From Burkholderiales bacterium (lineage in GTDB: Bacteria > Pseudomonadota > Gammaproteobacteria > Burkholderiales > JAEUOS01), in NCBI GenBank assembly GCA_016790635.1, contig JAEUOR010000036.1, positions 1 to 64,000 on the forward strand: 64,000 nucleotides of DNA, in the 5' to 3' direction. Positions 5,779 through 49,438 of this stretch are shown here, piece by piece; position 1 is the first letter of the stretch; each line of letters opens with the position of its first letter. A program made the translations under genes and the position numbers. Under the pieces are notes generated by a model. It was not told the DNA's origin, did not search any database, and saw only the letters and a list, made by a program, of their open reading frames with translations.

Positions 5779-5804
5779 GCGCGCATGGCAGAATGCGCCG
5801 CGCC

Positions 5805-6746: not shown

Positions 6747-7468
6747 GCCCCGACGCCGTCGCCCAGTACCTGCAGCACAATCCGCGCTTTTTCGAGGACT
6801 ACGCCGATCTCATGGCGCAGATCTTCGTCCCGCACCCGCATGGCGGGCGCGCCATCTCTTTGCCCGAGCGCCAGATGATCACGCTGCGCGACAAGGTGCG
6901 CAGCCTCGAGCACACGCTGGCCGACCTGATCGAGACCGGCCGCAGCAACGACGCGCTCTCCAACCGCATGCATGCGCTCAACCTGGCGCTGCTGTCGGCT
7001 GCGACCGAGGCGCCGCGCCGCGTGATCGCGATGGTCGAGGCGCGCCTGGTCGAGGATTTCGCGATCCCGCACACCGCGTTTCGCATCTGGGGCCTGGACG
7101 CCGCGGGCGCCGCCGCCGATCGCGTGATCGCGCTCGATGACGACCTGGCGCGCGTGGTCGCTTCCGACTACTTCAAGCATCCGTACTGCGGACCCTTGGC
7201 CGGGCTGGAACACGACGGCGTGCCCATCGGCGAACGGGTCGGCGCGTGGTTCGGCGAGGCGCAAGGCCACCTTAAATCGGCCGCCCTCCTGGCCGTGCGG
7301 GCCGGCGCCGGCGGCGGCCTCCTGGCGCTGGCGTCCGAGGACGAGCACCGCTTCTATGCCGGCATGGGCACGCTGTACCTGGAACGCCTGGCCGAATCGC
7401 TGGGCGCTGTCCTGACGCCTGCCGCCGCCGGCACCGATGGCGCGGCGGCGCCCGCCCCGGCCGGCTAG
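6743..7468 (+). CDS. DUF484 family protein
   Basis: A 241-residue GAF-like DUF484 protein, beginning [24 protein letters not shown], which is the diagnostic N-terminus of the family (a short region that reads as L-x-xHP-xFF). A helical segment (about residues 45-75, [23 protein letters not shown]) probably forms a coiled coil before the GAF-like half. Function is not established. It sits between dapF and xerC as in most beta- and gammaproteobacteria, and its ATG overlaps the dapF stop. Confidence 0.9.
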
Positions 7469-7471
7469 GCC

Positions 7472-8389: not shown

Positions 8390-9573
8390 AGGTCCCGGCC
8401 CTCATCCTCAAGCCCGGCCGCGAAAAGTCGCTCAAGCGCCGCCATCCCTGGGTCTTCTCCGGTGCGGTCGAACGCGCCGAAGGTGCACCTGCGCCCGGCG
8501 CCACGATTGTCGTGCGGGCCAGCGACGGCCAACCGCTGGGACTGGCCGCCTACAGCCCGCATTCGCAGATCCGCGCGCGCATGTGGAGCTTCGCAGCGGG
8601 CGAGCGCATCGATGCGGACTGGTTCAGGCAGCGCATCGCCGCGGCGGTGGCGCGCCGCGCGGGCCTCGACCCGGCCGCAGGGGTGCGACTGGTGCACGCC
8701 GAAGCCGACGGGCTGCCCGGGCTGATCGTCGACCGCTACGCCGACCTGGCCGTGGTCCAGCTGCTGTCTGCCGGCTGCGAACACTGGCGTGAGGCGATCG
8801 TCGCCGCGCTCGTTGAGGCCACCGGGGTCGCGCAGGTCTACGAGCGCTCCGACACCGACAGCCGCGAGCTCGAGGGACTTGAGCCGCGCAGCGGCCCGCT
8901 GCACGGGCCACCGCCCGCAGCACCCGTCGAGATCGTCGAGAACGGATTGAAGCTCGCAGTCGACGTGGCGCATGGCCACAAGACCGGCTTCTACCTGGAC
9001 CAGCGCAACAACCGCGCCCGCGCGCGGGCCGCGGCCAGACCCGGCATCACGGCCCTCAACTGCTTTTGCTACACCGGCGCCTTCTCGGTGGCGCTGGCCG
9101 CCGGCGGCGCGGCGCGCGTCGTCTCGATCGACTCCTCCGCACCGGCGCTGGACCTGGCGCGCGCCAACTGGGCCGCCAACGGCCTGGACGCTGCGCATGC
9201 CGAGTGGCGCTGCGCCGACGTCTTCGAAGAACTGCGCCGCGCGCGCGACCGCGGCGAGAAGTACGACATCATCGTCCTCGACCCGCCGAAGTTCGCGCCA
9301 ACGCCAGCCAGCGTCGAGCGTGCAACGCGCGCCTACAAGGACATCAACCTGCTGGGACTGAAACTGCTGGCCCCGGGTGGACGCCTCATCACCTTCTCGT
9401 GCTCCGGCGGTGTCAGTGCCGACCTCTTCGGCAAGATCGTCGCCGGCGCGGCGGCCGATGCCGGGGTGGAAGCCATCATCGAGGCGCGCCTGGTCGCGGC
9501 AGCGGATCACCCGGTGCTGCTGTCGTTTCCGGAAGGGGAGTACCTGAAGGGCTTGGTGCTGCGGCGGATTTGA
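8386..9573 (+). CDS. rlmI: 23S rRNA m5C methyltransferase, RlmI-type
   Basis: Predicted 395-residue class I SAM-dependent RNA methyltransferase. The N-terminus (LILKPGREKSLKRRHPWVFSGAV) is a PUA RNA-binding domain; the Rossmann methyltransferase domain has NCFCYTGAFSVALAAGG (SAM motif I) near residue 225 and LDPPKFAP (motif IV) near residue 300. This architecture matches RlmI, which methylates C1962 of E. coli 23S rRNA. The GTG start overlaps the xerC stop (GTGA). It is the last gene of the metK-side rightward run; 200 bases without a recognisable gene follow. Confidence 0.88.
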   Translation: MKVPALILKPGREKSLKRRHPWVFSGAVERAEGAPAPGATIVVRASDGQPLGLAAYSPHSQIRARMWSFAAGERIDADWFRQRIAAAVARRAGLDPAAGVRLVHAEADGLPGLIVDRYADLAVVQLLSAGCEHWREAIVAALVEATGVAQVYERSDTDSRELEGLEPRSGPLHGPPPAAPVEIVENGLKLAVDVAHGHKTGFYLDQRNNRARARAAARPGITALNCFCYTGAFSVALAAGGAARVVSIDSSAPALDLARANWAANGLDAAHAEWRCADVFEELRRARDRGEKYDIIVLDPPKFAPTPASVERATRAYKDINLLGLKLLAPGGRLITFSCSGGVSADLFGKIVAGAAADAGVEAIIEARLVAAADHPVLLSFPEGEYLKGLVLRRI

Positions 9574-9773
9574 AACCGCCTGCTTCCATCCGGGAAGCCT
9601 CGCGTTCCGAGCCACCAAGTCCAGGATCCGAGGACGGGCCTCAATCTGGCCTGCAAAATCGCATCGTCGGCTGCCATATCGCTGATATCATCGCGGCGCG
9701 GCCCAAAAAACGGCATTGTCCTGAATTCTGCAAAGCGCGCGGGCCCTCGCGAGCATGCCCGAGGAGACGCACC

Positions 9774-10775
9774 ATGCTTGACGGTATTTCGCTCGGCTGC
9801 AACGGCCGCGGCGTGCAGCACATTGCCGGCACACCGATCACGGTGGACGAGCAGTTCCGCCTGCTCAAGTCGGCCGGCATCTTCGATCACTTCGACCGCA
9901 TGCCGCAGCCGGGGCAGGAGCGCGAGTATGTGGATGCGGCCAACCGCCACGGCGTGCCCATCCGCACCGGGCTGTGGTCGTACACCATCGGCAAAGACGA
10001 AGCGCAGCTGGAGAAAAACCTGCGCGTGTGCAAGGACGCCGGCGGCGAGTTCCACGACATCATGCCTCTCACGCGGCACGCCGCCGGGCACGTGGTGACC
10101 GACCGCGAGGCGCTGGAGTTCTACCTGCATGCGCACGAAGTGGCGCAAAAGGTCGGCATCGGCATCGGCTTCGAGGTGCACATCTACATGTTCACCGAAG
10201 ACTTCCGCCGCGTCATGCCGCTGGCGCGCGCCGTGCGCGAGCGCGGCGTGCCGTTCAACTTCATCCTCGACCACAGCCACGTGCTGCTCAAGGTGGAGAA
10301 TCCCGAAGAGCAGGACGTGAGCGGCATTCGCGAAGACGTCGAGGCCGGCCGCTGCATCATCGACCCCTACGAAGAAGGCAACGTGCTCGATGAGTGGATC
10401 GCCGAGGACATGATCCCCTGGCTGCAAGTGCGGCCGGTGTCGCCGGCGGGGCCGAAGAACCGTTGGGCACTCACCGCCGATGGCCACTGGGGCCGCGCCT
10501 GCCAGTACCCGTTTGTCAAGCCGCGCCCCGGCGAGTGGCACAGCAGCTGGCACGCCTGGCGCGTGGAACCGTGCAAGGAAGTGGTGCGGCGCGTGTTTCG
10601 CCGCCACCTGACGCATGCCGCGACGAGCCCGTTGCGCTACCTCACCACTGACATGATCGACATGCCCGACTACGGCGACGGCGCGCGCTACAGCCTGTTT
10701 GAACAGAACGTGGCCATCGCACAGTGGCTGCGCAAGACCTACGCCGAGATCAAGGCCGACGTCGCGCGGGACTAG
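9774..10775 (+). CDS. Xylose-isomerase-like TIM-barrel protein
   Basis: A 333-residue cytoplasmic protein of the sugar-phosphate isomerase/AP endonuclease family 2 fold (Pfam AP_endonuc_2-like). Segments such as GFEVHIYMFTEDFRRVMPLA and FNFILDHSHVLL, with acidic and histidine residues on successive strands, fit a divalent-metal TIM-barrel site. GAGGAGA lies 7 bases before the ATG. Family members include isomerases, epimerases and inositol catabolic enzymes; nothing nearby identifies the substrate. It converges on the MAPEG gene with a 4-base overlap of the two stops. The 200 bases before it (9574-9773) contain no gene I can recognise. Confidence 0.75.
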   Translation: MLDGISLGCNGRGVQHIAGTPITVDEQFRLLKSAGIFDHFDRMPQPGQEREYVDAANRHGVPIRTGLWSYTIGKDEAQLEKNLRVCKDAGGEFHDIMPLTRHAAGHVVTDREALEFYLHAHEVAQKVGIGIGFEVHIYMFTEDFRRVMPLARAVRERGVPFNFILDHSHVLLKVENPEEQDVSGIREDVEAGRCIIDPYEEGNVLDEWIAEDMIPWLQVRPVSPAGPKNRWALTADGHWGRACQYPFVKPRPGEWHSSWHAWRVEPCKEVVRRVFRRHLTHAATSPLRYLTTDMIDMPDYGDGARYSLFEQNVAIAQWLRKTYAEIKADVARD

Positions 10776-36106: not shown

Positions 36107-36613
36107 TTATTTCCTCGGCAATGTGTAGAGAGGGTCGTCCATGCCGTGCTTCTGCTGGACGAATTCCTCCGGGAGGCGCACGGGGCCGTCAAGCGGCTCC
36201 GGCACCATGTCCCCGTGCACGAGGGTGCGATAGGCGACTTTCCATTCGCCATTCCTCTTCTCGAAACGGTCCAGGTAGCGCGCTGAGGCGGTCACCCGAC
36301 GGTCCTTGAAGCGCTGCAGCACCAGGACGTAGGTCTCGACAAAAGCCCGGTCCCTTGCCGTGAACTCGATCAGCACGTTGGTGTTGAAGTGCATCGAGTG
36401 CTCCTGCAGGGCGTGCATCCTGGCGATATGCGCAAGGAAGCTGTCCGCGGGGCCGTTGAAGAAGCCGTGGTCGTCGATGGCATCGTCGTGGTAAAGGGTC
36501 CGTGCCAGCGCCCAATCCTGCCGGTCGACCCCGCGCGCGAAGCGATTCAGGCAATCCTCGATGGCGACCCTCGCCTCGAGTTCTTCAAGAAAATTGTCGA
36601 AGACCACGTTCAT
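36107..36613 (-). CDS. NTF2/SnoaL-like protein
   Basis: A 168-residue protein with the cone-shaped NTF2-like fold of SnoaL-type cyclases and dioxygenase beta subunits: LEARVAIEDCLNRFARGVDRQ, DWALARTLYHDDAIDDHGFF and later RFKDRRVTASARYLDRFEKR, WKVAYRTLVHGD. ATG at 36613 with GGAG upstream; a longer in-frame start is unlikely. Last gene of the leftward ior unit, so perhaps it acts on an aromatic intermediate or helps an oxygenase. Function unknown. Confidence 0.75.
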   Translation of the reverse strand: MNVVFDNFLEELEARVAIEDCLNRFARGVDRQDWALARTLYHDDAIDDHGFFNGPADSFLAHIARMHALQEHSMHFNTNVLIEFTARDRAFVETYVLVLQRFKDRRVTASARYLDRFEKRNGEWKVAYRTLVHGDMVPEPLDGPVRLPEEFVQQKHGMDDPLYTLPRK

Positions 36614-36712
36614 TCTCCGTGAAAAAATGAAGTCGGGTGGGGTCGCCGGAGCAGGGCAGGTGATCATCGGCCCGGGCCGTGGCGCCAACACCGATTATCA
36701 CGGCCCGTTACA

Positions 36713-37171
36713 TCAAGGTGTCCTCGCCAGTTCATAGCGTTCGTCCGATCGGTATCTCTCCAGCGCAGCCCGAAGGTCCGCGGGGATTTCGATCGCCTTC
36801 TTGCCGCCCATGTCCACGAATACAACGGTGAGGTTGGCGACGAGTTTCAGGTCAGTCGCTTGCGCTGCACCCTGGCCGCGCATCGTGATGTCCAGACTCA
36901 AGGACGACGTCCCCAAGCGACTGACGACCAGCCCGGCTTCCAGGGTCTCACCGAGGAAGCCCGGGTTCTTAAAATCGATTTGCAGCTTGACCACAGGGAT
37001 GGCGATCGCGCGCGGTCCGTGCAGCGTCGCGAAATCGCAGCCCAGTCCGTGCTTGAACCAGTGCTCGACGACGTCATTGATCATCTCCGCGTAGCGCGGG
37101 TAGAAGACGATCCCCGCCGGATCGCAATGCCGGAAGGAAATCTCCAGCGCGGTGCGGTGAACTTCCGTCAT
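36713..37171 (-). CDS. Acyl-CoA thioesterase, 4-hydroxybenzoyl-CoA thioesterase family
   Basis: A 152-residue hot-dog fold thioesterase with the catalytic aspartate segment RHCDPAGIVFYPRYAEM near the N-terminus, typical of the 4HBT/YbgC group. It would hydrolyse an acyl- or aroyl-CoA. Encoded six bases after iorB, it could release the free acid from the arylacetyl-CoA formed by IorAB or recycle CoA from dead-end thioesters. Confidence 0.85.
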   Translation of the reverse strand: MTEVHRTALEISFRHCDPAGIVFYPRYAEMINDVVEHWFKHGLGCDFATLHGPRAIAIPVVKLQIDFKNPGFLGETLEAGLVVSRLGTSSLSLDITMRGQGAAQATDLKLVANLTVVFVDMGGKKAIEIPADLRAALERYRSDERYELARTP

Positions 37172-37177
37172 GCGAAC

Positions 37178-38686
37178 CTACGCGAGCGCCGCCAGGCAAG
37201 CCCGCAGCTTGACGCCGGACTCATCCGCGAGCGCGGCCTCGCGCATTTCGCGCACCGACGGGGCGCCCGGCGCGGACCGGTCGAGCGCGCCGAGGATCGC
37301 CTGGTAGTTGGCGAAACCGCGCGCGTGCGTGTCGCCATATCCCTTGATCAGCCGCGGGCATTCGGCGATCTCGCAGGCCAGCGCATAGTCGTCTGCCACC
37401 GCCTTGCCGATACGCCCGAGCCAGTCGCGCATGGCGGCGGTCTCGCGCTCGTAGCGCAGCGAGCGGCGCCGCAAGCCGCGGCACGCGGCCACCGCGTAGA
37501 GCATCAGGAAGCCGCCCAGCGAACTCGTGCGGATCACCCGGCCCTGCCTCGTCAATCGTCGGAGCAGCGCGCGCGACAGGCGGCTGGCCAGCAGCCAACG
37601 GCCAAGGCCCGCGGGCGCCGTATCGGCGATTTCCTCCAGTCTCGGATGGAAATACTCGTGGATATGCAGCACCTGGCCGGCCTCTGCCCGCGCTTCGCGG
37701 TGCACACGCGCGAAGCGCGAGCGTCTCAGCTTCAGTTCCGCGACGCGCGCGACGTCCTCGAAGGTCATCCACAGCGCCAGGTAACGGGCGGTCTCGCGCA
37801 GGAGGCGCCAGCTCCCGTCGCCAAAGCGTCGATCGAGTTCCGCAACCGGCGCTAAGCGGTCCAGCAATTCGCCGGCGTAGGCGAGATCCTGGTAGTCCGC
37901 TGCGCGCGCCAGGGCAGGCTCGATGATGTCGGCGCAGGCGGCAGGAAGCTCGCTCGCCGCCCTGCGCAGGAGCTCTCCCAGGCGCGGATCGGGTGCGAGG
38001 CGATTCGCTGCCGATACCGGCCCGGCCTCAGGCTCCTTAAGGAATGCGTCGTGCCCCGCCGCGAAGGCCTGCAAGCTCGCCGCGACGCCCACCCCGCCCC
38101 GAACGATCGCCGCTTCGCAGGCCTGCCGGTCCCAGGGCAGCGCGCCCGACGCCGCCAGCGCGCCGAACAGCGGGCCGCTGATCACGCTGCCGCATTGTTC
38201 CGCGAGCTGCGCGAAATCGCGCGCGACATACCGCTGCGCGGCCTCGCGTCCGGTATCGATGAACGGCTCCGACGATACCCGACCGTCACCCATCGCCATC
38301 TTCTCGTCGATGGCGTAGACACGATGGGACGACGTGATCAGCAAGGTCTTGTCCGGCGTCACGATACCGCGCTGGACCGCCCGCGCCGACTCCATGAGCT
38401 CGGAGGCGATCACGACGTCTACATCGCCCGGTGTCGGCATCAGGCTGAAGACCGGCTGGCGCGACAGGTCGCGCGCGACCGGCAGCACCTCCACGTAGTA
38501 GAGCGTGGCGCCGGTCCGCTGGGCGACGCCGGGAACCGAGGTGGACTGGGCGTAGTAGCTCTCGCACTCCGCGGCATCGACGATCCAGTCGGCCAGCACG
38601 CCTCCGCCCTCGCCGCCCATCGCAAGGATGGCGATCTTGATCGGGCGCGCGCGCATGGCCGAAGCGGACATCGCGTCACGCGACAT
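37178..38686 (-). CDS. iorB: Indolepyruvate ferredoxin oxidoreductase beta subunit (IorB)
   Basis: About 502 residues. The N-terminal 190 residues are the gamma/beta-type POR domain (IKIAILAMGGEGGGVLADWIV, SVPGVAQRTGATLYYVEVLP); the remaining 300 residues are a DUF6537-like helical extension found in long IorB proteins. With IorA it oxidatively decarboxylates an arylpyruvate (indole-, phenyl- or hydroxyphenylpyruvate) to arylacetyl-CoA. The start is uncertain: ATG 38686 overlaps iorA by 11 bases, with further ATGs at 38671 and 38656; a TTG lies upstream. Confidence 0.88.
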   Translation of the reverse strand: MSRDAMSASAMRARPIKIAILAMGGEGGGVLADWIVDAAECESYYAQSTSVPGVAQRTGATLYYVEVLPVARDLSRQPVFSLMPTPGDVDVVIASELMESARAVQRGIVTPDKTLLITSSHRVYAIDEKMAMGDGRVSSEPFIDTGREAAQRYVARDFAQLAEQCGSVISGPLFGALAASGALPWDRQACEAAIVRGGVGVAASLQAFAAGHDAFLKEPEAGPVSAANRLAPDPRLGELLRRAASELPAACADIIEPALARAADYQDLAYAGELLDRLAPVAELDRRFGDGSWRLLRETARYLALWMTFEDVARVAELKLRRSRFARVHREARAEAGQVLHIHEYFHPRLEEIADTAPAGLGRWLLASRLSRALLRRLTRQGRVIRTSSLGGFLMLYAVAACRGLRRRSLRYERETAAMRDWLGRIGKAVADDYALACEIAECPRLIKGYGDTHARGFANYQAILGALDRSAPGAPSVREMREAALADESGVKLRACLAALA

Positions 38687-40874
38687 GGACGAACTGCCGG
38701 GCCGCAAGGCGTCGTTGCAGGCGGCCGATGACGAACTTGGTCACGCGCTCGACGAATCTTTCCGCGCGACCCGCATGGGTCACAAGTTCGGTCCGGTAGA
38801 AGGAGGGACACAGCACCGCCGCATGCGACACCTCGCCGCACAGCCCGCAGCCCACGCAGCTCGATTGCACGGTCGCCACCGGGTCTTTTCGCAGCGGATC
38901 CGGATTGGGCCGGATACTCAAGGACGGGCAGCCGGACAGCCGGATGCAGGAATGGTCCCCGGTGCAGGACTCGGGATCGATCCCGAAGCGCTCGACGACG
39001 ACGCGCTCGCCGCGGGCGGCGCGCTCGCGCAGCTGCGGTTTCACGCGCCGCTGCTTGTTGAGCATGCACTCGGATTGCGCCAGGACCAGCTTGGGCCCGG
39101 GTTCGCCCGTCGTCAGCGCGTCGCGGATCGCCGCCTTCATCTTCTTGAGACCATAGGTATGGGATACCTTGCGCAGCCATTTCACGCCGACGCCGCGCAC
39201 GGCGGCTTCGATGGGCAGCGCTGTGGTGCGGTTGGCATTGGGCGCCCGGGACGACGGGATGTCCTGGCCGCCGGTCGCCGCCGAGTAGCCATTGTCGATG
39301 ACGACGATGACGTTGTCGCTCTTGTTGAAGACGGCGTTGCCGACGCCGGAGGTCAGCCCGTTATGCCAGAAGCCGCCGTCGCCCATCACGCTGATCGTGC
39401 GCCGGTCCGCCCCGTTCGCGTTGAGGGCCGCGGCGCCGGCGGCGCCCAGGCCGTAGCCCATGGACGTCGCGCCGAAGTCGAAGGGCGCGAGCGCGGCGAA
39501 CTGGTGGCAGCCGATGTCGGCGCTGACGTGATGCTGCCTGCCGATCTCCCGCTCGACCAGCTTGATCGCCGTGAAGATCGGCCGCTCGGGGCAGCCGGTG
39601 CAGAACGAGGGCGGCCGCGGCAGCACGCCGGGCGCCTCCTTGAGCGCCACGCCGGGCATGGAGGGAACCAGCGGAATCACCTTGGGCGCAAGCATGGACG
39701 CCACGCCGCTGTCCAGGGGCTTGCGCTCCAGGAGTCGGGGCGCATGCTTCTGCAGGAACTTGCGCAGGCCCTTCAGCATCACCAGCGTGGTGTACTCGCC
39801 GGCGCGAGGCAACATGTCCTTCCCGTGCACGCGCGTTGCCAGGTCGGCGCGGCGCAGGACGGTCGCAAGCGTCTGCTCGATGAACTCCGGCTGCCCTTCC
39901 TCGAGCATCAGTACCGCATCGCGGCCCTCGCAGAATTCGATCGCCTCGTCCTCGATCATGGGGTAGACCACGTTCATCACGTAGATCGGGATCTGCGCCG
40001 TCCCCCAGATGTCGGCCAGACCCAGCATCTCGAGGGCGCGGATGAGGGTGTTGTAGAGGCCGCCTTGCACGATCAGCCCGATGCCGCCGCCGCCCTCGGA
40101 CTCCGCTCCCAGGAACTCGTTGAGCCGCTGTTCCCGCACGAAGCGGGTGGCGGCAGGCCAGCGCGCGTGGATCTTCTCGTGCTCGTGCAGGAAGGTCGCC
40201 GGCGCCAGCGCCATCCTCTGCACGTCGCGCCGCGGGTTCTCGATGGCGTCCTTGAGCGTGAACGCCGGCGGCTTGTTGTCGGAAGCCACGAAGCCTCCGT
40301 GCGCATGGCAGGCGCGCACGCGCATGGTGAGCATGACCGGCGTGCGGCTGGCCTCGGACAGCTCGAAGCCCTTTTCCACCGCCTTCACCAGGCTGTCGTG
40401 GGCGGGCCGCGGATCCAGCAGCCACATCTGCGACTTCATGGCGAAGGCGTGCGAGCGCTCCTGGATGATCGAGGACCCTTCGCCATAGTCCTCGCCCAGG
40501 ATCACGAGGCAGCCTCCGGTGACGCCGCCGGAGGCCAGGTTCGACAGGGCGTCCGAAGCGACATTGGTGCCGACGGTGGACTTGAAGGTGATCGCGCCGC
40601 GCAGCGGGTAGTGCACCGAGGCGCCGAACATGGCTGCGGCGGTGGCTTCACTGGCGGAGCTCTCGAAATGCACGCCGAGACCATCGAGGATTTCACGGGC
40701 ATCGGCGAGCACATCCATGAGGTGCGACACCGGCGCGCCCTGATAGCCGCCGACGTAGGCGACCCCGGCCTGCAGCAGCGCCTTGGTCACGGCGAGGATG
40801 CCCTCGCTGCGGAACTCCTCTCCCGCACCCGCCCGGAGCTTCTGCACCTCTTCCTTGAACGATCTTTCAGCCAC
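38676..40874 (-). CDS. iorA: Indolepyruvate ferredoxin oxidoreductase alpha subunit (IorA)
   Basis: About 732 residues. TPP-dependent pyrimidine and PP domains (VGGYQGAPVSHLMDVL; the TPP motif GDGGFWHNGLTSGVGNAVF to IDNGYSAATGG) precede a C-terminal two-cluster ferredoxin domain with CX5CX5C (CTGDHSCIRLSGC) and CVGCGLC plus a distal Cys. It forms the catalytic half of the arylpyruvate:ferredoxin oxidoreductase with IorB. GTG at 40874 with AGGG upstream is preferred; TTG at 40892 has no ribosome site and would lie next to the predicted transcription start. It is divergent from the ligase gene. Confidence 0.9.
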   Translation of the reverse strand: MAERSFKEEVQKLRAGAGEEFRSEGILAVTKALLQAGVAYVGGYQGAPVSHLMDVLADAREILDGLGVHFESSASEATAAAMFGASVHYPLRGAITFKSTVGTNVASDALSNLASGGVTGGCLVILGEDYGEGSSIIQERSHAFAMKSQMWLLDPRPAHDSLVKAVEKGFELSEASRTPVMLTMRVRACHAHGGFVASDNKPPAFTLKDAIENPRRDVQRMALAPATFLHEHEKIHARWPAATRFVREQRLNEFLGAESEGGGGIGLIVQGGLYNTLIRALEMLGLADIWGTAQIPIYVMNVVYPMIEDEAIEFCEGRDAVLMLEEGQPEFIEQTLATVLRRADLATRVHGKDMLPRAGEYTTLVMLKGLRKFLQKHAPRLLERKPLDSGVASMLAPKVIPLVPSMPGVALKEAPGVLPRPPSFCTGCPERPIFTAIKLVEREIGRQHHVSADIGCHQFAALAPFDFGATSMGYGLGAAGAAALNANGADRRTISVMGDGGFWHNGLTSGVGNAVFNKSDNVIVVIDNGYSAATGGQDIPSSRAPNANRTTALPIEAAVRGVGVKWLRKVSHTYGLKKMKAAIRDALTTGEPGPKLVLAQSECMLNKQRRVKPQLRERAARGERVVVERFGIDPESCTGDHSCIRLSGCPSLSIRPNPDPLRKDPVATVQSSCVGCGLCGEVSHAAVLCPSFYRTELVTHAGRAERFVERVTKFVIGRLQRRLAARQFVHVA

Positions 40875-41082: not shown

Positions 41083-42702
41083 ATGCAAACCGCGTATGGA
41101 AGATTTCGCCAGACTGCCGAGCGCCGGCCGGACGCCGACTTCCTGCACGTCGAAACGGTGACAGCGGCCACCTACGATATCCCGCCCGGAACCCTCTCCT
41201 GGTCGGCCGCGGCGGATGAGGTCGAGCACTTGCGCGCCGGCTATGCACAGGCCGGCTACGGCCACGGCCATCGGGTGGGCCTATTGATGGAAAACCGGCC
41301 GGCGCACCTGCTGCACTGGCTTGCCCTCAACGGACTCGGTGTCAGCGTGGTCCCCATCGGCGTCGAGATGCGCGCCGCGGAGCTGGAATACCTGATCGGA
41401 CACAGCGAGATCACCCTGGCGGTGGTGCTTGCGAAGCGGGTGGACGCGGTGCGGGCCGCCGCGCGCGCGGCTGGCGTGCGGACGCAGGTCGTGGCACTGG
41501 GCGCGACGCATTTCCCGGAACCGGCGCGGCCTGTCGTCGAACCGGCGGAACCCGGCCTCGAGACGGAATGCGCCCTGCTCTATACCTCGGGGACCACCGG
41601 TCGCCCCAAGGGTTGCCGTCTTTCGAACGACTATTTCCTGCGCGTCGGCGACTGGTACGCGGGGCTCGGTGGTCACTGTCCCGTGCGGACGGGCCAAGAG
41701 CGCATCCTCACGCCGCTGCCGCTGAACCACGTCAACGCGATGTCCTTCTCGACGATGGCGGTGATCACGACGGGCGGCTGCCTGATCCAGCTGGATCGCT
41801 TCCATCCCCGCTCGTGGTGGTCCTCGGTGCGCGAGAGTCGCGCGAGCATCGTCCACTATCTCGGCGTCATGCCGGCCATGCTCCTGGCGGGCCCCGCCTC
41901 GGAAGAAGACCGCGCCCACGACGTGCGCTGGGGTTTCGGCGCGGGCGTCGGCGCCGGCGACCACGCGCGCTTCGAGGAGCGCTTCGGCTTTCCGCTGGTG
42001 GAGGGCTGGGCGATGACCGAGACCGGTGCCGGCGGAGCCATCCATGCGAATCGCGGCGCCCGGCAGGTGGGCGTGCATGCGGTCGGTGTGCCCGGCGCGC
42101 ACATCGAGGTGCGCCTCGTCGATGAGGAAGGGCGCGATGTACCGGCCGGTCAGCCCGGCGAGCTGCTGGTGCGCGCCCGAGGTGAGGACCCGCGCAGGCA
42201 CTTCTTCTCGTCCTACCTCAAGGACGAGGCAGCAACGGAAGAGGCCTGGGCGGGCGGCTGGTTCCACACCGGCGATGTCGTGCGCGCCGACGCCGACGGC
42301 GCGCTGTTCTTTGTCGACCGCAAGAAGAATGTCATCCGCCGCAGCGGAGAGAACATCTCCGCCGTCGAAGTGGAGGCGGTGCTCGCTCGCCACGAACTCG
42401 TGAAGGTGGCCGCCGTGGCCGCGACGCCCGACCCGGTGCGCGGCGACGAAGTCCTGGCCTTGATCATCCCGAAAGACGAGGTTCCGGCCGCGGCCAGGGA
42501 AGATCTCGCGCGGGACATCGTGCGCCACGCACTGGACCAACTGGCGTACTACAAGGCGCCGGGCTGGGTCGCATTCGTGGCGGCCCTGCCGGTGACGGCG
42601 TCGCAGAAGATCCAGCGCGGTGAACTGCGCAAGCTCGCCGCGCAAATGCCCGGCCAGGCGCATTGCGTCGACACGCGCGCGCTCAAGACCCGCCAGGCAT
42701 GA
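41083..42702 (+). CDS. AMP-dependent acyl-CoA ligase
   Basis: A 539-residue ANL superfamily enzyme. The P-loop-like adenylation motif is LLYTSGTTGRPKGCRLS near residue 165; the YxxTE-equivalent region is EGWAMTETGAGG, the hinge is FFVDRKKNVIRRSGENI and the catalytic C-terminal lysine is in ASQKIQRGELRK. It forms an acyl- or aroyl-adenylate and then the CoA thioester. It begins the rightward arm of the divergent island under the palindromic operator; the thiolase-like gene overlaps its stop (ATGA). Substrate unknown; an aryl or branched acid fits the context. Confidence 0.88.
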   Translation: MQTAYGRFRQTAERRPDADFLHVETVTAATYDIPPGTLSWSAAADEVEHLRAGYAQAGYGHGHRVGLLMENRPAHLLHWLALNGLGVSVVPIGVEMRAAELEYLIGHSEITLAVVLAKRVDAVRAAARAAGVRTQVVALGATHFPEPARPVVEPAEPGLETECALLYTSGTTGRPKGCRLSNDYFLRVGDWYAGLGGHCPVRTGQERILTPLPLNHVNAMSFSTMAVITTGGCLIQLDRFHPRSWWSSVRESRASIVHYLGVMPAMLLAGPASEEDRAHDVRWGFGAGVGAGDHARFEERFGFPLVEGWAMTETGAGGAIHANRGARQVGVHAVGVPGAHIEVRLVDEEGRDVPAGQPGELLVRARGEDPRRHFFSSYLKDEAATEEAWAGGWFHTGDVVRADADGALFFVDRKKNVIRRSGENISAVEVEAVLARHELVKVAAVAATPDPVRGDEVLALIIPKDEVPAAAREDLARDIVRHALDQLAYYKAPGWVAFVAALPVTASQKIQRGELRKLAAQMPGQAHCVDTRALKTRQA

Positions 42703-43871
42703 GGCCCGCGCGACTCGCCTACGACGGCGTCGCCGCGGCCGCGCCGGTGACCGTGCCCTACGCGCGCTACAGCGAGCGCAGCGCGCACCACTTCGCGGCG
42801 CAGGCGCTCAGGCGGCTGCTCGACGAGGCGGACCTGGAAAAGGCGCAGGTGGACGGGATCATCGTCAGCAGCTTCGGGCTCGCGCCGGACACCGTCGTCG
42901 GACTCACCCAGCAGCTGGGGCTGGTGCCGCGCTGGATGGACCACATCCCCACCGGCGGCGCCTCGGGCGTCATGGCGCTGCGGCGCGCCGCCCGCGCGGT
43001 GCAATGCGGGGATGCGCAGATCGTGGCCTGCATCGGCGCGGACACCAACCATGTCGCATCGCACCGGCTGAGCCTTTCGAACTTCAGCCAGTTCGCCCGC
43101 GATGCCACCTACCCGTATGGCGCGGGCGGTCCCAACACGATGTTCGCATTGATCACGGACAACTACATGCGCCGGTTCGGCGCCACCCCGGAAGACTTCG
43201 GGCGCATCGCCGTCAGCCAGCGCGCCAACGCCTCGCGCAACGCCAATGCGCTCCTGCGTCGGCCGATCACGCTGGAAGACTACCTGCGAGCGCGGCCCAT
43301 CGCCGACCCGCTGCGCCTCCTCGATTGCGTGATGCCCTGCGCCGGCGCGGAAGCTTTCCTGGTGATGCGCGAGGAACGGGCGCGCGATCTGGACCTGCCC
43401 CACGCCTGCCTGCGCGGCGCCATCGAACGCCACAACGCTTTCACCGAAGATCCCGTCATGGTGCGCGGCGGCTGGCTCATGGATCAGCGCGAACTGTACG
43501 CCCAGGCGGGCATCACAGCCGGCGAGATCGACGTGCTGCACACCTACGACGACTATCCGGTCATCGTCATGATGCAGCTCGAAGGACTGGGCTTCTGCGA
43601 CGCCGGCGAGGCGCCGGCCTACGTGCGCGCGCACACCTTGACGCACGACGGCAGCGCTCCCCACAACACCAGCGGCGGCCAGCTCTCCGCCGGTCAGGCC
43701 GGCGCCGCCGGCGGCTACCTGGGCGTGACCGAAACGCTCCGCCAGCTCACCCAAACCGCCACCGGCCGGCAGGTTCCGGAAGCGCACTGGGGGCTGACCA
43801 GCGGATTCGGCATCGTCAATTACGACCGCTGCGTCTGCACCGGCGCGGTCGTTCTGGAGTCCGCCACATGA
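42699..43871 (+). CDS. Thiolase-fold protein without catalytic Cys (Ltp2-like aldolase)
   Basis: A 390-residue thiolase superfamily protein of the SCP-x/lipid-transfer branch. The nucleophile loop reads PTGGASGV (residues 85-91), with Gly87 where thiolases have Cys, and the usual GHP histidine loop is replaced by NTSGGQLSAGQAG. Loss of both residues is known in Ltp2-type proteins that, together with a DUF35 partner, act as retro-aldolases on 3-hydroxyacyl-CoAs. The next gene encodes a DUF35 protein (here fused to an SDR), supporting that reading. Starts overlap both neighbours. Confidence 0.85.
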   Translation: MRPARLAYDGVAAAAPVTVPYARYSERSAHHFAAQALRRLLDEADLEKAQVDGIIVSSFGLAPDTVVGLTQQLGLVPRWMDHIPTGGASGVMALRRAARAVQCGDAQIVACIGADTNHVASHRLSLSNFSQFARDATYPYGAGGPNTMFALITDNYMRRFGATPEDFGRIAVSQRANASRNANALLRRPITLEDYLRARPIADPLRLLDCVMPCAGAEAFLVMREERARDLDLPHACLRGAIERHNAFTEDPVMVRGGWLMDQRELYAQAGITAGEIDVLHTYDDYPVIVMMQLEGLGFCDAGEAPAYVRAHTLTHDGSAPHNTSGGQLSAGQAGAAGGYLGVTETLRQLTQTATGRQVPEAHWGLTSGFGIVNYDRCVCTGAVVLESAT

Positions 43872-45136
43872 CGGCACAGCAAATCGCGCGCGGCGGCCCC
43901 GGCCAGCGCAGCAACCCCGTCCTGCGCACCCCGCGCATAAACCTGCCGCCGGCGGGGCGAACCCGGGTCGCCCACGGACTGACCGCCGCCGCGGCCACCG
44001 GCAACGCCCTGGTCCTGCAGACCTGCAAGGACTGCGCAGCGACGCAATACCCGCCGCGGGAAGCCTGCGGCGCCTGTCTGTCCGATCGCTTGCAATGGCG
44101 CGAGCAGGCCGGCGGCGGCGCGCTCGTTGCCCAGACCACCGTGCGCCACAGCAACCACCTGTACTTCAGGGAGCGCCTGCCGTGGCGCGTCGGAACGATC
44201 CACCTGGATGCGGGCCCCGCGGTGGTCGCCTTCCTGACCGACAGCGTGCCCGCCGCCCCGGCGCGCGTGCGCGTGTCGCTGCACCTGGACCGCGCAGGCG
44301 AGGCCGTGCTTGTGGCACAACCCGAAAGCGAGTACGCCATGCATGGCGAAGAGAAGCTGCAGCGCGAAACCGGCTGCAACCCGAAGGGCCGCAACGTGCT
44401 GGTCAGCGACGGCAAGTCCGCCGTCGGCCAGGCGCTGGTGCGCGCGCTCGTCGGCGCCGGCTGCGCGACCGTCTGGGTCGGCCATGCCGAACCGTGGAAG
44501 AAGCACCTGGCCCTGGACGGCATCGCGACCCTCCCGGGCGTGCACCTCGTTCCCCTCGACCTCACCGACGCGCGCGCGGTCGCCGAACTGGGCGGCGAAC
44601 TGGGCGGCAAGGTGGACATCGTCGTCAGCAATGCGGAGGTGAACCGGACGCAGTCCGTCGCTTCGCGCCGGGGTACCGATGTCGCGCGCGCGGAGATGGA
44701 CATCAACTACTTCGGCCTCTTGAGGCTGGCGCAGGCCTTCGCGCCCGCGCTTCAGGCGCGCGCCGCCGACGGCGCCCGGCACGCCGTCGCCTGGGTCAAC
44801 CTACTGTCGATCTTCGCGCTCAACCACTATCCCACGCACGGCACGTACTCGGCCTCCAAGGCGGCCGCCCTGTCGATCGCGCAGGGCCTGCGCGCCCAGA
44901 TGCTGCCGCACGGCATCAGGGTGCTGAACCTGTTTCCCGGACCGGTCGACGACGAGTGGAACCAGAACCTGCCCCCCCCCAAGCTGAGCCCGGCCGCGCT
45001 GGCCAGCGCGACCCTGGATGCGCTGATGCGCGGCGTGGAAGACGTCTACCCGGGAGACGTCGCGCAGGAGTGGCTCGCGCGCTGGCGTGAAAACCCGAAA
45101 GCGCTGGAGCGTGAAGTCGCACACGGAAGCCTTTGA
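43868..45136 (+). CDS. DUF35 zinc-ribbon/OB protein fused to a short-chain dehydrogenase
   Basis: A 422-residue two-domain protein. Residues 50-160 are DUF35: zinc ribbon Cys53-x2-Cys56 and Cys67-x2-Cys70 (QTCKDCAATQYPPREACGAC), then an OB-fold ending near FLTDSVPAAPARVRV. From about residue 173 an SDR domain starts (NVLVSDGKSAVGQALV, a degenerate glycine motif), with SNAEVN, Ser314, Tyr327 and Lys331 (YSASK) as catalytic residues. DUF35 proteins normally stand alone as partners of thiolase-like enzymes; the fusion to a dehydrogenase is unusual. ATG overlaps the preceding gene's stop. Confidence 0.83.
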   Translation: MTAQQIARGGPGQRSNPVLRTPRINLPPAGRTRVAHGLTAAAATGNALVLQTCKDCAATQYPPREACGACLSDRLQWREQAGGGALVAQTTVRHSNHLYFRERLPWRVGTIHLDAGPAVVAFLTDSVPAAPARVRVSLHLDRAGEAVLVAQPESEYAMHGEEKLQRETGCNPKGRNVLVSDGKSAVGQALVRALVGAGCATVWVGHAEPWKKHLALDGIATLPGVHLVPLDLTDARAVAELGGELGGKVDIVVSNAEVNRTQSVASRRGTDVARAEMDINYFGLLRLAQAFAPALQARAADGARHAVAWVNLLSIFALNHYPTHGTYSASKAAALSIAQGLRAQMLPHGIRVLNLFPGPVDDEWNQNLPPPKLSPAALASATLDALMRGVEDVYPGDVAQEWLARWRENPKALEREVAHGSL

Positions 45137-45137
45137 C

Positions 45138-45935
45138 ATGACAACCTCCATCCTCGCCTCGCTGGCCCAAGCGCTGGCCGGCAACCAGGTGCGCGTCATC
45201 GACCTGACGCAGACGCTCGCCCCTTCCTTTCCCACCATTTCGCTGCCTCCCGAGATGGGCCAGTGCTGGCCGTTCCGCATCGAGGAAATCGCGCGCTACG
45301 ACGAGCGCGGTCCCGGCTGGTACTGGAACAACTTCTCATGCGGCGAGCACACCGGAACGCACTTCGACGCGCCGATCCACTGGATCTCGGGCCGGCACCT
45401 GCCGAACAACGCGGTCGACACGGTGGACGTGCAGCGCCTCATCGCCCCGGCCTGCGTGATCGACTGCTCCGCCCAAGCCGCCACGGATCCGGACTACCTG
45501 CTCAGCGTCGCCGACATCGAAGGGTTCGAGCGCGACCACGGCCGCATCCCGGCCGGCAGCTGGGTGCTGATGCGCACCGACTGGAGCAAGCGCTCCGATC
45601 CCGAGCAGTACCAGAACTACGACGAGACCGGGCAGCACACGCCCGGTCCGTCGGCAGAAGCCGTGCGCTTCCTCGTGGAAGAGCGCGACGTTCTCGGCTT
45701 CGGCTCGGAAGCGATCGGCACCGATGCGGGCCAGGGTTACCACCTGAAGCCGCCCTACCCCTGCCACTCGCTGATGCACGGTGCCGGCAAGCTCGGGCTG
45801 CAGTGCCTCACGCAACTGGACCTGCTGCCGCCCACGGGCGCGCTGCTCGTCACCCCGCCATTGAAGATCCTGAACGGTTCAGGCAGCCCGCTGCGCGTGC
45901 TGGCGCTGACCGAGACCTCCGGCCATGGAAACTAG
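45138..45935 (+). CDS. Cyclase family metal hydrolase (isatin hydrolase/KynB-like)
   Basis: A 265-residue protein with the metal-binding signature HTGTHFDAPIH (His71, His75, Asp77, His81) of the cyclase/kynurenine formamidase/isatin hydrolase family, followed by GSWVLMRTDW and the C-terminal TPPLKILNGSGSP block. Members hydrolyse formylkynurenine, isatin or related aryl-amide or cyclic bonds with Mn or Zn. Encoded inside the ior/ligase island it could open or hydrolyse an indole-derived intermediate. ATG at 45138 fits; a longer start overlapping the previous gene is unlikely. Confidence 0.82.
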   Translation: MTTSILASLAQALAGNQVRVIDLTQTLAPSFPTISLPPEMGQCWPFRIEEIARYDERGPGWYWNNFSCGEHTGTHFDAPIHWISGRHLPNNAVDTVDVQRLIAPACVIDCSAQAATDPDYLLSVADIEGFERDHGRIPAGSWVLMRTDWSKRSDPEQYQNYDETGQHTPGPSAEAVRFLVEERDVLGFGSEAIGTDAGQGYHLKPPYPCHSLMHGAGKLGLQCLTQLDLLPPTGALLVTPPLKILNGSGSPLRVLALTETSGHGN

Positions 45936-46617
45936 AGAAGACTCCCTCGCCACAGCCGCCCCGAGCCTGAGTGCGTCGGCGTATCAATTCCTGCTGGCGC
46001 GCCTGCGCGGGGGCCACCTGGACACCGGCGAGCGCTTGGTCGAGGCCGACATCGCAACCCGACTCGGCGTATCGCGCGTGCCGGTGCGGCAGGCGCTTCT
46101 GCAACTGGTTGCGGAAGGCTACCTGGTCAGCACGCCGCGCGGCTATCGCATGCCCACGCTCGGTCCTGAGGACATCCAGGACGTCTTCGAGTTGCGCCTG
46201 TTGCTTGAACCGCGGGCCGCGGCCCTCGCGGCGCGCGACATCACACCGGAGCAGATCCGGGAACTGGATATCGCGATCGGCGAGGCCCAGGCAGCGCACA
46301 AGTCGAACGACGTCCCCGCCGCCTTCGGCGCCGGCCGCCGCTTTCGCGATGCGTGGCTTGGGGCGGTGCGCAATTCCCGGCTTGCGTCCAGCATCACGCG
46401 CTACAACGACCAGGTAATCCTGGTGCGGCAGATGACGCTCGCCGACTTCGAACGCCGCCAAAGGATTGTTTCCGGATACGAGGACCTGCGGCATGCCTTC
46501 GCGCATCACGACAGCGTGACGGCGCACGACTGCATGCAGAGTCTCGTCCTGGCTGCCCAGCGCGACTTCACCGAGGTGACATCACTCCCCCAACTCCAGA
46601 CAGGAAAGACCCCATGA
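45925..46617 (+). CDS. GntR/FCD family transcriptional regulator
   Basis: A 230-residue repressor: winged-helix domain (about residues 15-80, with TGERLVEADIATRLGVSRVPV and RQALLQLVAEGYLV) and an FCD ligand domain (FELRLLLEPRAAALAAR onward). It overlaps the cyclase gene by 11 bases and the TctC gene by four, so it is in the same operon. FadR/VanR-type regulators bind GT-AC palindromes such as TTCAGTATACTGAA at 41022, the most likely operator. Its ligand may be the pathway substrate or its CoA ester. Confidence 0.88.
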   Translation: METREDSLATAAPSLSASAYQFLLARLRGGHLDTGERLVEADIATRLGVSRVPVRQALLQLVAEGYLVSTPRGYRMPTLGPEDIQDVFELRLLLEPRAAALAARDITPEQIRELDIAIGEAQAAHKSNDVPAAFGAGRRFRDAWLGAVRNSRLASSITRYNDQVILVRQMTLADFERRQRIVSGYEDLRHAFAHHDSVTAHDCMQSLVLAAQRDFTEVTSLPQLQTGKTP

Positions 46618-47621
46618 AGCCCCCCTATGCCAAGCGCGCGCTCGTCCTGCAGGCCATCTTCTCCGCCGCGGCGGTTCTCCTCGGCTGCAACACGGCTCCT
46701 CTACAGGCCCAGGACACGTTTCCGAATAAACCGATCCGCGTCATGATCCCGTTTCCGCCGGGCGGCGCGATCGACAACTTCGCGCGGACGATCGGCCCGG
46801 AACTGAGCGCGCAACTCGGCCAGCAGCCCCTCGTGATCATCAACAAACCCGGCGGCGGGTCGCAGATCGCCGCTGCGGACATCCTCAATTCGCCGGCGGA
46901 CGGACACACGCTGTTCGTGGCGCAGACGGGCGACTTCAGCGTCAATCCGATCCTGTACAAGAACAGCAACTACCTCCCGACCCGGGATTTCGACGGTGTC
47001 GCGATGCTGTTGCGGGCGCCGCTGGTCATGCTGGCGAACGTCGCCGGAAAACTGAACGGCGTGAAGTCGCTCAGGGACACATTGGCCACGCCGGGCGGCA
47101 GCGTCTTCTACGGCTCCTTCGGGCCCGGCACGGCCCCCCATCTCCTGGGGCACATCCTGTCCAGGAACTCGCCGGGCGCGAAGTTCACGCACATCCCGTA
47201 CAAGGGATTTCCTCCCGCCATGCAGGCCATCGTGACCAACGAGGTGGACCTGCTGTTCGACGCCGTTCCGGGCGCCCTCAACATGATGCGTACCGGCAGG
47301 GTCGTGCCGCTGGCAGTGGCCGCGGCGCAGCGCAACAGCTTCCTGCCCAACGTGCCGACCACCGCCGAGATCGGCCTGCCCTATCTATTGATGGACTTCT
47401 GGATCGGGGTGGCGGTGAAGAAAGGTACGCCACGGCACATCGTGAATCGCCTGCATGAAGCCCTCGACAAGGCCGTCGCCAGCCCCGAGAACCTCAAGAA
47501 GTTCACCGACATCGGGTACAGCCGCGTGACGATGCCCCCCGAGCAATTCGACGGGTTCATCCGCGCCGAGACCGAGAAGATGCGGCCGGTGATCGTGGAC
47601 ACGGGTGTGAGCGTCGACTAA
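46614..47621 (+). CDS. Second TctC/Bug-type binding protein
   Basis: A 335-residue periplasmic solute-binding protein with a signal/lipoprotein-like leader (ALVLQAIFSAAAVLLGCNTA; a lipobox-like LLGC), the Bug motif NKPIRVMIPFPPGGAIDNFAR and THIPYKGFPPA. It overlaps the regulator stop and precedes the Rieske oxygenase by 9 bases, so it may import the island's substrate; no tctA/tctB genes are nearby, and the real transporter is unknown. Confidence 0.88.
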   Translation: MKPPYAKRALVLQAIFSAAAVLLGCNTAPLQAQDTFPNKPIRVMIPFPPGGAIDNFARTIGPELSAQLGQQPLVIINKPGGGSQIAAADILNSPADGHTLFVAQTGDFSVNPILYKNSNYLPTRDFDGVAMLLRAPLVMLANVAGKLNGVKSLRDTLATPGGSVFYGSFGPGTAPHLLGHILSRNSPGAKFTHIPYKGFPPAMQAIVTNEVDLLFDAVPGALNMMRTGRVVPLAVAAAQRNSFLPNVPTTAEIGLPYLLMDFWIGVAVKKGTPRHIVNRLHEALDKAVASPENLKKFTDIGYSRVTMPPEQFDGFIRAETEKMRPVIVDTGVSVD

Positions 47622-47630: not shown

Positions 47631-48959
47631 ATGAACTTCGCTGCCGACCCCGACGCTGTCTCGAGCCTTGTCCGGCACGACCAGGTGCACAAGGACGTGT
47701 ACCTGAGCGCCGAGTTGTTCGCTCTCGAGCAACGCGCGCTTTTCGCGAAGACGTGGAACTACCTCGGGCACGCAAGCCAGGTTCCGGAGCGCGGCGATTT
47801 CTTCACCCTCGACTTGGCCGGAGAGCCGATCCTGGTGTTGCGCGACCCGGCGGGGCAGGTGCGGGCATTCCACAACCGCTGCGCGCACAAGGGAACCCGG
47901 CTCTTGACCGCGGAGTCGGGCCGCATCAGCGGCCCCGTCGTCCGCTGCCCCTACCACGCCTGGTCCTACCGCCTGGACGGCGGCGAACTTGCGGCCTTCC
48001 CTCTGAAGGAGGGATACGAACACACGCGGCTTGGCGAGTCCGAGGCAGGCCGCGGGCTCGCGCCGCTGGCGGGTTTCCATGTGTACCGGGACTTCATCTT
48101 CGGACGGATCAGCCCGCAAGGCGTCGGATTCGAGGAATACTTCGGCGAGATCCTTGAGGGCATCGACCTCATGGTCGACCGATCTCCCAGCGGCAGGTTG
48201 CGGATCGAGGGCGGCGTGTTGCGCAACACGATCAACTGCAACTGGAAGCTCTATCTGGAGAACATCAACGATTCCGTGCACCCGGTGTCCACGCACGCCT
48301 CCGCGGTGCGTGCCGCGCAATCCGTCCTCAAGGGGTTGAGCGCGGATGCGCCGAAGCCGCTGGCGTTCGAGCAGATCCTCCCCTTCGGGCAGAAGTACGA
48401 CTTCTTCGAGCAATCGGGCGGCAAGGTGTTTCCCAACGGGCACAGCATCACCGGGACTCGCTTCAGCATCCACTCCGGATACGGGGCCATGCCTGGTTAC
48501 GAGGCAGCGCTCAAGGCCGCGCGCGGGGAAGACCGGGCCCGGCAGATTCTGGAAAGGTCGCCGCAGAACACGGTGCTCTACCCCAGCCTCGCCCTCAAGG
48601 GCTCGCCCCAGACGATACGCGTCATCCGCCCGGTCGCGGTGGACAGGACCGTGATCGAAGCCTGGAACTTCCGGACGCTCGACGCGCCGGAGCTGTTGTT
48701 CGACCGCGCGCTCACCTACAGCCGGCTGGTGTTCTCGCCGATGTCCGTGGTGGCGCACGACGACATCCACCTGTTCGAGGCCCAGCAGAGCGGGCTGCGT
48801 TCGCAGGCGGCCGACTGGGTCAGCTTGCACCGCGAACATGACGCGCGCGAACTGGAAGAGCCTACCCGCGAGACCAGCGGGACGAACGAGCTCTTGATCC
48901 GCAATCAGCACCGGGCATGGGCGCTCTACATGGGCGCCGGGCAAAGGGGACCGGCATGA
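47631..48959 (+). CDS. Rieske ring-hydroxylating oxygenase alpha subunit
   Basis: A 442-residue oxygenase large subunit. Rieske cluster ligands are Cys84-x-His86 (NRCAHKG) and Cys106-x2-His109 (VRCPYHAW); the mononuclear iron site has His217 and His222 in NDSVHPVSTH, bridged by Asp214. It hydroxylates an aromatic ring (dioxygenation) or demethylates or hydroxylates a side chain. The beta subunit follows, overlapping. No ferredoxin or reductase gene is adjacent, so a distant electron-transfer chain must be used. Confidence 0.92.
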   Translation: MNFAADPDAVSSLVRHDQVHKDVYLSAELFALEQRALFAKTWNYLGHASQVPERGDFFTLDLAGEPILVLRDPAGQVRAFHNRCAHKGTRLLTAESGRISGPVVRCPYHAWSYRLDGGELAAFPLKEGYEHTRLGESEAGRGLAPLAGFHVYRDFIFGRISPQGVGFEEYFGEILEGIDLMVDRSPSGRLRIEGGVLRNTINCNWKLYLENINDSVHPVSTHASAVRAAQSVLKGLSADAPKPLAFEQILPFGQKYDFFEQSGGKVFPNGHSITGTRFSIHSGYGAMPGYEAALKAARGEDRARQILERSPQNTVLYPSLALKGSPQTIRVIRPVAVDRTVIEAWNFRTLDAPELLFDRALTYSRLVFSPMSVVAHDDIHLFEAQQSGLRSQAADWVSLHREHDARELEEPTRETSGTNELLIRNQHRAWALYMGAGQRGPA

Positions 48960-49438
48960 CCGCCGATGCCAGGGAGGCAGTGGATTTCATCTACATGGAG
49001 GCAGCGCTGCTCGATGATGAGCGGTATCGGGAATGGCTGGACCTCTTTGCCGAGGACGGCCGTTATTGGGTTCCGCTCCTGGGCGCCCGCCAGGCCGAAG
49101 AGGAGAAGCACAACGCGATCGCGGACGAAGACAGGATGCTCCTGTCCCTGCGCATCGAAAGACTCACTTCCGGACTGGCCCATTCGCAACATCCCAGGAG
49201 CAGCATGCAACACGTGTTGCAGGAACCCACTCTGCTCAAGGTTCGGGAGGACGAAGGCACGTTCACGTTGCGCACCTCCTTCGTGTATGCCGAGAGCCGC
49301 GGCGACGACATGGTGACGCTGTACGGCCACTACATCCACAGGCTAATCAGGGTGCGGAACACGCTGCGGATTTCTCTCAAGCGGGTCAACCTGGTCAACT
49401 CCGGCAGCCGGCTTCCCATGATTCAGCTGTTCCCGTGA
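48956..49438 (+). CDS. Aromatic ring-hydroxylating oxygenase beta subunit
   Basis: A 160-residue NTF2-fold small subunit of the preceding oxygenase. VDFIYMEAALLDDERYREWLDLF, DGRYWVP and LRISLKRVNLVN are typical of the family. The ATG overlaps the alpha-subunit stop (ATGA), giving equal translation for the heterohexamer. It is the last gene of the rightward arm; the next gene is on the other strand. Confidence 0.92.
   Translation: MTADAREAVDFIYMEAALLDDERYREWLDLFAEDGRYWVPLLGARQAEEEKHNAIADEDRMLLSLRIERLTSGLAHSQHPRSSMQHVLQEPTLLKVREDEGTFTLRTSFVYAESRGDDMVTLYGHYIHRLIRVRNTLRISLKRVNLVNSGSRLPMIQLFP

Follow-up and report, generated by a model that had tools for sequence, protein, structure and literature searches.

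A DUF35–short-chain dehydrogenase fusion in an iad locus is IadH, a probable partner of a putative retro-aldolase, with a dehydrogenase half that appears to have lost its redox machinery

One gene of the 64,000-nucleotide stretch of DNA analysed here (the window) encodes a DUF35 domain followed by a short-chain dehydrogenase (SDR) and adjoins a gene for a thiolase-like protein. This arrangement raises the questions of whether the fusion is genuine, which reaction the pair serves and whether the SDR half contributes redox chemistry to it. The fusion gene belongs to the iad (indole-3-acetic acid degradation) locus, in which it is iadH and is situated directly between iadG and iadI. The coordinates of the locus and of the IadH features are listed in Table 1.

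The iadH reading frame has no internal stop, and its start ATG shares the sequence ATGA with the iadG stop. Three Pfam models match the product above their cut-offs: zf-ChsH2 on residues 46–75 (34.5 bits, cut-off 23.2), OB_ChsH2_C on residues 77–136 (35.0 bits, cut-off 27.1) and adh_short on residues 176–368 (78.4 bits, cut-off 26.6). The domain search agrees with the initial annotation of the window, which had described DUF35 and SDR in a single frame, and the residues named there (Cys53/56/67/70 and Ser314/Tyr327/Lys331) are present exactly as given. The cofactor motif is degenerate, as had also been noted, with Asp181 in place of the first Gly of TGxxxGxG and S254-N-A-E257 in place of NNAG.

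Table 1. Genes of the iad-like locus in the window and features of the IadH protein.
Feature	Coordinates	Strand	Basis
iorB (iadB)-like subunit	37178..38686	-	
iotA (iadA)-like 2-oxoacid:ferredoxin oxidoreductase	38676..40874	-	
iadF, AMP-forming acyl-CoA ligase	41083..42702	+	family scan
iadG, thiolase-fold protein, putative retro-aldolase	42699..43871	+	fold, sequence, active-site residues
iadH, DUF35-(pseudo)SDR fusion, 422 aa	43868..45136	+	ORF, Pfam, orthologues
IadH N-terminal segment, aa 1-45, putatively partner-binding	43868..44002	+	conservation, pLDDT
IadH DUF35: zinc ribbon aa 46-75 (Cys53/56/67/70), OB fold aa 77-136	44003..44275	+	Pfam, profile matches, Cys4 in 52/52
IadH SDR-fold domain, aa 173-418, putative pseudo-dehydrogenase	44384..45121	+	Pfam, fold match, motif losses
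IadH degenerate cofactor motif S180-D181-G182-K183-S184-A185-V186-G187 (canonical TGxxxGxG)	44405..44428	+	Asp/Asn at 181 in 52/52
IadH Glu257 at the Gly position of NNAG	44636..44638	+	Gly missing in 51/52
IadH Ser314, Tyr327, Lys331, all present in the window protein	44807..44860	+	
iadI, isatin hydrolase family (PF04199)	45138..45935	+	5nmp match; gene caller prefers start 45111
GntR/FCD regulator	45925..46617	+	family scan
TctC-family solute-binding protein	46614..47621	+	family scan
Rieske oxygenase alpha subunit, clade separate from IadD	47631..48959	+	tree
Rieske oxygenase beta subunit	48956..49438	+	family scan

A single scan of species genomes returned full-length fused homologues, 61–67% identical, on about 30 contigs from Variovorax, Ottowia, Castellaniella, Caenimonas, Ideonella, Rubrivivax-type MAGs and others. 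The identity of window IadH to the Variovorax-type loci is 60–66% over the full length, including both DUF35 and SDR. The window genome carries a second copy of the fusion on a different contig (64% identity), and fusions of 41–54% identity occur in some more distant Burkholderiales and in Alphaproteobacteria, including plasmids of Sulfitobacter, Roseibium/Labrenzia and Azospirillum. The initial annotation had suggested a search for the same architecture; the fusion was recovered in 48 distinct sequences and is constant in all 52 rows of the motif alignment, which come from isolates, plasmids and MAGs of Beta- and Alphaproteobacteria. These rows include four duplicate pairs, and the 45 sequences that are distinct at 95% identity give the same result. 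Among the homologues, neither two separate proteins nor a frameshift near residue 165, the point at which a false join had been envisaged, was found. Since 48 distinct homologues carry the same architecture, a frameshift or assembly join of two genes is ruled out, and the probability of such an artefact is practically nil.

The homologues of iadH lie nearly always directly 3′ of a thiolase-like gene. Among 398 genomes sampled from the phylum, IadG orthologues (E < 1e-180) and full-length IadH were found in the identical 8 genomes, and iadG and iadH were adjacent in 9/9 copies. Variovorax-type loci show the order iotA-iorB-reductase-RieskeA-RieskeB-ligase-thiolase-iadH-cyclase-SDR-binding protein. 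This A-B-C-D-E-F-G-H-I-J synteny agrees with the gene order published for iadA to iadK, where iadH is flanked by iadG and iadI (IMG numbers, PMC10374108). In the window, a divergent gene pair resembling indolepyruvate-ferredoxin oxidoreductase lies upstream of iadF; thioesterase-like and SnoaL-like genes, recognised by eye from their translations, directly follow this iorB/iotA pair (36107–37171, minus strand). By the iad route, indole-3-acetic acid is converted first to dioxindole-3-acetic acid, then to isatin and finally to anthranilate (PMC9613470). PMC12633357 labels IadH an alcohol dehydrogenase, takes IadG for a ketothiolase and gives kynurenine formamidase as the annotation of IadI. The word DUF35 was not found in PMC12633357, PMC9613470, PMC10374108 or PMC11630574.

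The predicted model of IadG (mean pLDDT 79.5, pTM 0.85) has the Sal-Shy(DUF35) aldolase 9myr as its best Foldseek match (E 4.5e-28, TM 0.84) and Ltp2-ChsH2(DUF35), 6ok1, as its third; 6ok1 and 9myr also lead the sequence matches. The thiolase nucleophile position is occupied by Gly87 instead of Cys, and Tyr283-Asp284-Asp285-Tyr286 (YDDY) is found where thiolases have HDCF. YDDY and GGQLSxGQ of IadG correspond to YDCY and GGQLSFGQ of Sal, with Gln328 and Gln333 noted as well. Gly87 and both motifs are invariant in an alignment of 28 sequences and also hold in the listed variants of 38. The description of IadG as a “Cys-less thiolase” is thus accurate for the nucleophile position, but cysteines are present elsewhere in the protein, four of them invariant. 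The base of Sal and Ltp2 is the first Tyr of the motif (PMC12329534). Neither of the known general acids, Cys304 of Sal and Tyr344 of Ltp2, is present in IadG: Asp285 takes the position of Cys304, where it may act as the acid instead, and Gln333 that of Gln352/Tyr344. IadG is best read as a retro-aldolase with a Sal/Ltp2-type fold that may use another acid, and is not classed as either Sal or Ltp2.

The substrate points in the same direction as the fold. The CoA thioester of the published intermediate dioxindole-3-acetic acid is a 3-hydroxyacyl-CoA, and its C3 hydroxyl is tertiary, so that on chemical reasoning it cannot be oxidised to a 3-ketoacyl-CoA and thiolysis is excluded. The annotation in PMC12633357 implies a true ketothiolase, IadG, acting with IadH as a separate alcohol dehydrogenase. 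This assignment is very improbable in view of that chemistry, the retro-aldolases as nearest folds and the active-site residues, on which a thiolase function of IadG is rejected. The retro-aldol half of the initial annotation is supported, with a real fusion and a paired thiolase-fold protein whose active-site residues fit 3-hydroxyacyl-CoA cleavage.

The structure comparison with the whole IadH model returned SDRs throughout, and the DUF35 half was placed by sequence profiles instead. The two best PDB matches of the profile of the N-terminal half are ChsH2(DUF35), 6ok1_B (E 8.7e-9), and Shy DUF35, 9myr_B (E 1.8e-7). These are the DUF35 partners of the very aldolases nearest to IadG, which supports the docking of IadH on IadG. 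The four Cys zinc ligands are invariant (52/52). Residues 13–45 are among the best conserved, with a mean pairwise identity of 0.78, but the single-chain model gives them pLDDT below 50. A segment that folds on a partner would be expected to behave in this way, and the N-terminal segment may therefore be partner-binding. In the Ltp2-ChsH1-ChsH2 system, however, DUF35 is reported to be non-essential for aldolase or hydratase activity. Docking need not therefore mean strict dependence, and IadH may be a mere dock.

The nature of the next enzyme bears on the product. Window IadI is nearest to solved isatin hydrolases (5nmp, E 7.6e-105). Labrenzia aggregata is the earlier name of Roseibium aggregatum, the same species. 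In Roseibium aggregatum, the gene directly 3′ of iadH is about 96% identical (248/257, printed alignment) to isatin hydrolase A, the structure and activity of which were published from Labrenzia aggregata (PMC6117287). The metal motif of window IadI, HTGTHFDAPIH, fits HxG[T/A]HxDxPxH as defined for isatin hydrolases in the same paper. The IadI proteins of iad loci are annotated as kynurenine formamidase or cyclase, yet their nearest solved relatives are isatin hydrolases. Because IadI belongs to this family, isatin is very likely the immediate product of IadG/IadH, as judged from sequence.

Published genetic data are compatible with this. Deletion of iadF, iadG, iadH or iadI leads to the accumulation of dioxindole-3-acetic acid (PMC12633357), which fits a need for IadH in the cleavage itself; the iadH phenotype weighs little, since the iadI deletion accumulates the same compound. 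IadF, IadG and IadH acting without IadI gave C8H7NO2, the formula of dioxindole and not of isatin, and the step was read as reductive (PMC12633357). This result counts against a non-redox step. On the non-redox reading, the compound seen without IadI would most readily be accounted for as isatin that other enzymes have reduced.

The predicted SDR domain of IadH superimposes on 5u4s with Z 26.7 and rmsd 2.9 over 234 aligned residues, and the SDRs of IadH form one clade apart from standalone SDRs (support 100/100). The first Gly of TGxxxGxG is missing in all 52 IadH rows (Asp in 49, Asn in 3), and the NAG Gly is present in one, being mostly replaced by Glu or Asp. The catalytic Tyr is kept in 14/52, with Phe (31), Trp (4), His (2) or Ala (1) in the others, and the catalytic Lys is kept in 41 and missing in 11. 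All five key SDR residues are intact in none of the 52, versus 8 of 9 standalone relatives, the ninth being without Ser only. In Roseibium and Sulfitobacter IadH, the SDR motif is almost gone. At least three changes between Tyr-Lys and Phe-Lys fall on well supported branches of the IadH tree, which suggests that the catalytic position has not been maintained. The dN/dS of the SDR half is 0.05–0.17 by a simple Nei-Gojobori estimate on sequence pairs. At the level of sequence, motif loss combined with low dN/dS is what a functional pseudoenzyme would show.

Two observations temper the pseudoenzyme reading. Window IadH itself keeps Ser314-Tyr327-Lys331, which counts against it, and the nearest solved SDR, 5u4s from Burkholderia cenocepacia, contains NADP in its crystal although it has no such Tyr, so that unusual motifs need not prevent an SDR from binding cofactor. 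Together with the C8H7NO2 that accumulates without IadI, these points speak for an SDR half that is an active isatin/dioxindole oxidoreductase with an unusual cofactor site, so that IadGH would cleave and then reduce. Such an enzyme, close to both the published “reductive removal” and the initial annotation, is unlikely: an active redox fusion is disfavoured by the loss of the first Gly in 52/52, of the NAG Gly in 51/52, of the Tyr in 38/52 and of the Lys in 11/52. Moreover, IadI groups with isatin hydrolases, and no report of dioxindole as a substrate was found in the isatin hydrolase literature examined. The earlier proposal that the SDR acts on the released carbonyl has thus not been borne out, as neither the cofactor glycines nor the catalytic residues are maintained across the 52 homologues. 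Nor does the pathway need a redox step at this point, since an isatin hydrolase acts next. The published alcohol dehydrogenase label for the IadH step is probably wrong, given the family-wide loss of cofactor-binding and catalytic residues.

The pseudo-SDR could also be the inactive subunit of a pair whose active subunit is the genuine SDR IadJ, and thereby link IadJ to the aldolase. IadJ is an intact SDR (TGGSAGIG, YSATK) whose gene adjoins iadI in many loci, and BbsCD, according to a title cited in PMC10818641, is an SDR with inactive pseudoenzyme subunits. However, no iadJ is found beside G-H-I in the window, in the second cluster of the same genome (L031), in Castellaniella (L055, L056, L064), in L052/L059 or in five of six alphaproteobacterial loci. 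The best IadJ-like match in the window genome is 42% identical, and IadJ is reported to act before CoA activation. An IadJ-IadH heterodimer is disfavoured as a general explanation and is a rather doubtful proposition.

The reading that we consider reasonably probable is that IadH is the DUF35 partner of the retro-aldolase IadG with a conserved pseudo-dehydrogenase half, and that the pair converts dioxindole-3-acetyl-CoA to isatin and acetyl-CoA in a non-redox step. IadF would make the CoA thioester of dioxindole-3-acetic acid, and the DUF35 half of IadH would dock on IadG to give a retro-aldolase of the Sal-Shy(DUF35) or Ltp2-ChsH2(DUF35) kind. With Tyr283 as the base and probably Asp285 as the acid, IadG would cleave the tertiary 3-hydroxyacyl-CoA in a non-redox reaction that yields acetyl-CoA and isatin, and IadI would hydrolyse isatin to isatinate. 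The SDR half would be a pseudo-dehydrogenase, its fold under purifying selection and its cofactor binding and catalysis presumably lost in the family, and its role would most likely be structural, substrate-holding or one of hand-over. A bolder version can be put forward tentatively: IadGH might form a new class of DUF35-partnered retro-aldolase on oxindole-acetyl-CoA, in which a non-NAD(P) Rossmann pocket binds the CoA ester or isatin and passes it to the isatin hydrolase. Features that would mark such a repurposed pocket are the acidic residues at the cofactor-glycine positions and a conserved Trp210 after strand 2.

Several loci differ in their surroundings. The window Rieske pair, a long branch in the tree, is 63% identical to the second Rieske of Xenophilus (L046:13154-14530) and about 50% to the IadD type; in Xenophilus, Variovorax and Caenimonas, members of its clade lie 3′ of a normal iadDE. 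Since the window Rieske belongs to a non-IadD clade and neither iadC nor iadJ is beside the locus, the first substrate of the cluster may be a relative of indole-3-acetate instead of indole-3-acetate itself. The second F-G-H-I cluster of the window genome (L031, G000:C86:27000-46000, 5217-10131) is 62–78% identical, adjoins a TRAP transporter and has no Rieske genes within 19 kb; one organism may therefore run two iad-like modules for different substrates. A G-H-I triad with no nearby Rieske or iadJ is present in Castellaniella (L055, L056, L064), where it adjoins iotA/iorB, and in most alphaproteobacterial loci (L092-L097). This triad may be a core module for other routes to oxindole-acetyl-CoA. 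The iadH of Azospirillum thermophilum (L100, NZ_CP029358.1, ~2600-4300) is unannotated and seemingly frameshifted near its 3′ end.

Root-associated bacteria are being engineered to break down auxin, a plant hormone, and the mid-pathway steps IadF-G-H-I have been assigned from annotation only. If the proposed reading is true, the “ketothiolase plus alcohol dehydrogenase” step would be a non-redox retro-aldol cleavage to isatin, IadI would be a true isatin hydrolase and IadH would best be regarded as a docking protein, with a conserved pseudoenzyme for its dehydrogenase half. The functions published for IadG, IadH and IadI call for revision. The role of DUF35 fusions would also become directly testable in a soil bacterium that is not a pathogen.

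IadH of Variovorax paradoxus CL014 (PMC12633357, PMC10374108) occupies the same F-G-H-I gene position and was published without mention of DUF35 or a degenerate SDR. Homologues from other Variovorax loci show 62–66% full-length identity; the window locus is unlike that of CL014 in its Rieske of another clade and in the absence of adjacent iadC and iadJ. The need for iadH in anthranilate formation and dioxindole-3-acetic acid breakdown has been published for CL014 only (PMC12633357). The closest SDR by sequence and fold, 5u4s of the PRK08264 group, is standalone, with no DUF35, and unlike IadH keeps TGxxxGxG and NNAG and binds NADP. In ibuprofen degradation, IpfD/IpfE likewise combine a Rieske oxygenase, a CoA ligase and a thiolase-like protein, and an oxidised aromatic loses its acyl-CoA side chain by retro-aldol chemistry; there the substrate is a ring diol, and no SDR fusion is described (PMC9195938). 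BbsCD of anaerobic toluene degradation resembles IadH in having inactive SDR subunits beside a DUF35-containing thiolase (BbsAB), but its pseudo-SDR is not fused to DUF35 and forms a subunit of its own within an active SDR.

Two further parallels come from steroid-degrading systems. In Shy and Sal of Comamonas testosteroni (PMC11321319, PMC12329534), as in IadH, an enzyme fold is fused to a DUF35 that binds a thiolase-fold retro-aldolase, and Sal is the closest solved fold to IadG. Unlike IadH, Shy carries an active MaoC hydratase in place of an SDR and serves a steroid substrate, its zinc site is Cys3His versus Cys4 in IadH, and Sal has YDCY versus YDDY in IadG. ChsH2 with Ltp2 (6ok1) likewise joins a catalytically dead enzyme domain to an aldolase-binding DUF35, but this domain is a MaoC fold that works with an active partner, ChsH1, on the cholesterol side chain. 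IadH would thus add to ChsH2 a second example of a dead enzyme domain, here of a different fold, that is fused to DUF35 and accompanies a retro-aldolase. The combination of DUF35 and an enzyme domain beside a retro-aldolase is of a known kind; what is new is that the fused domain is an SDR, with redox machinery that appears to have been lost throughout the family.
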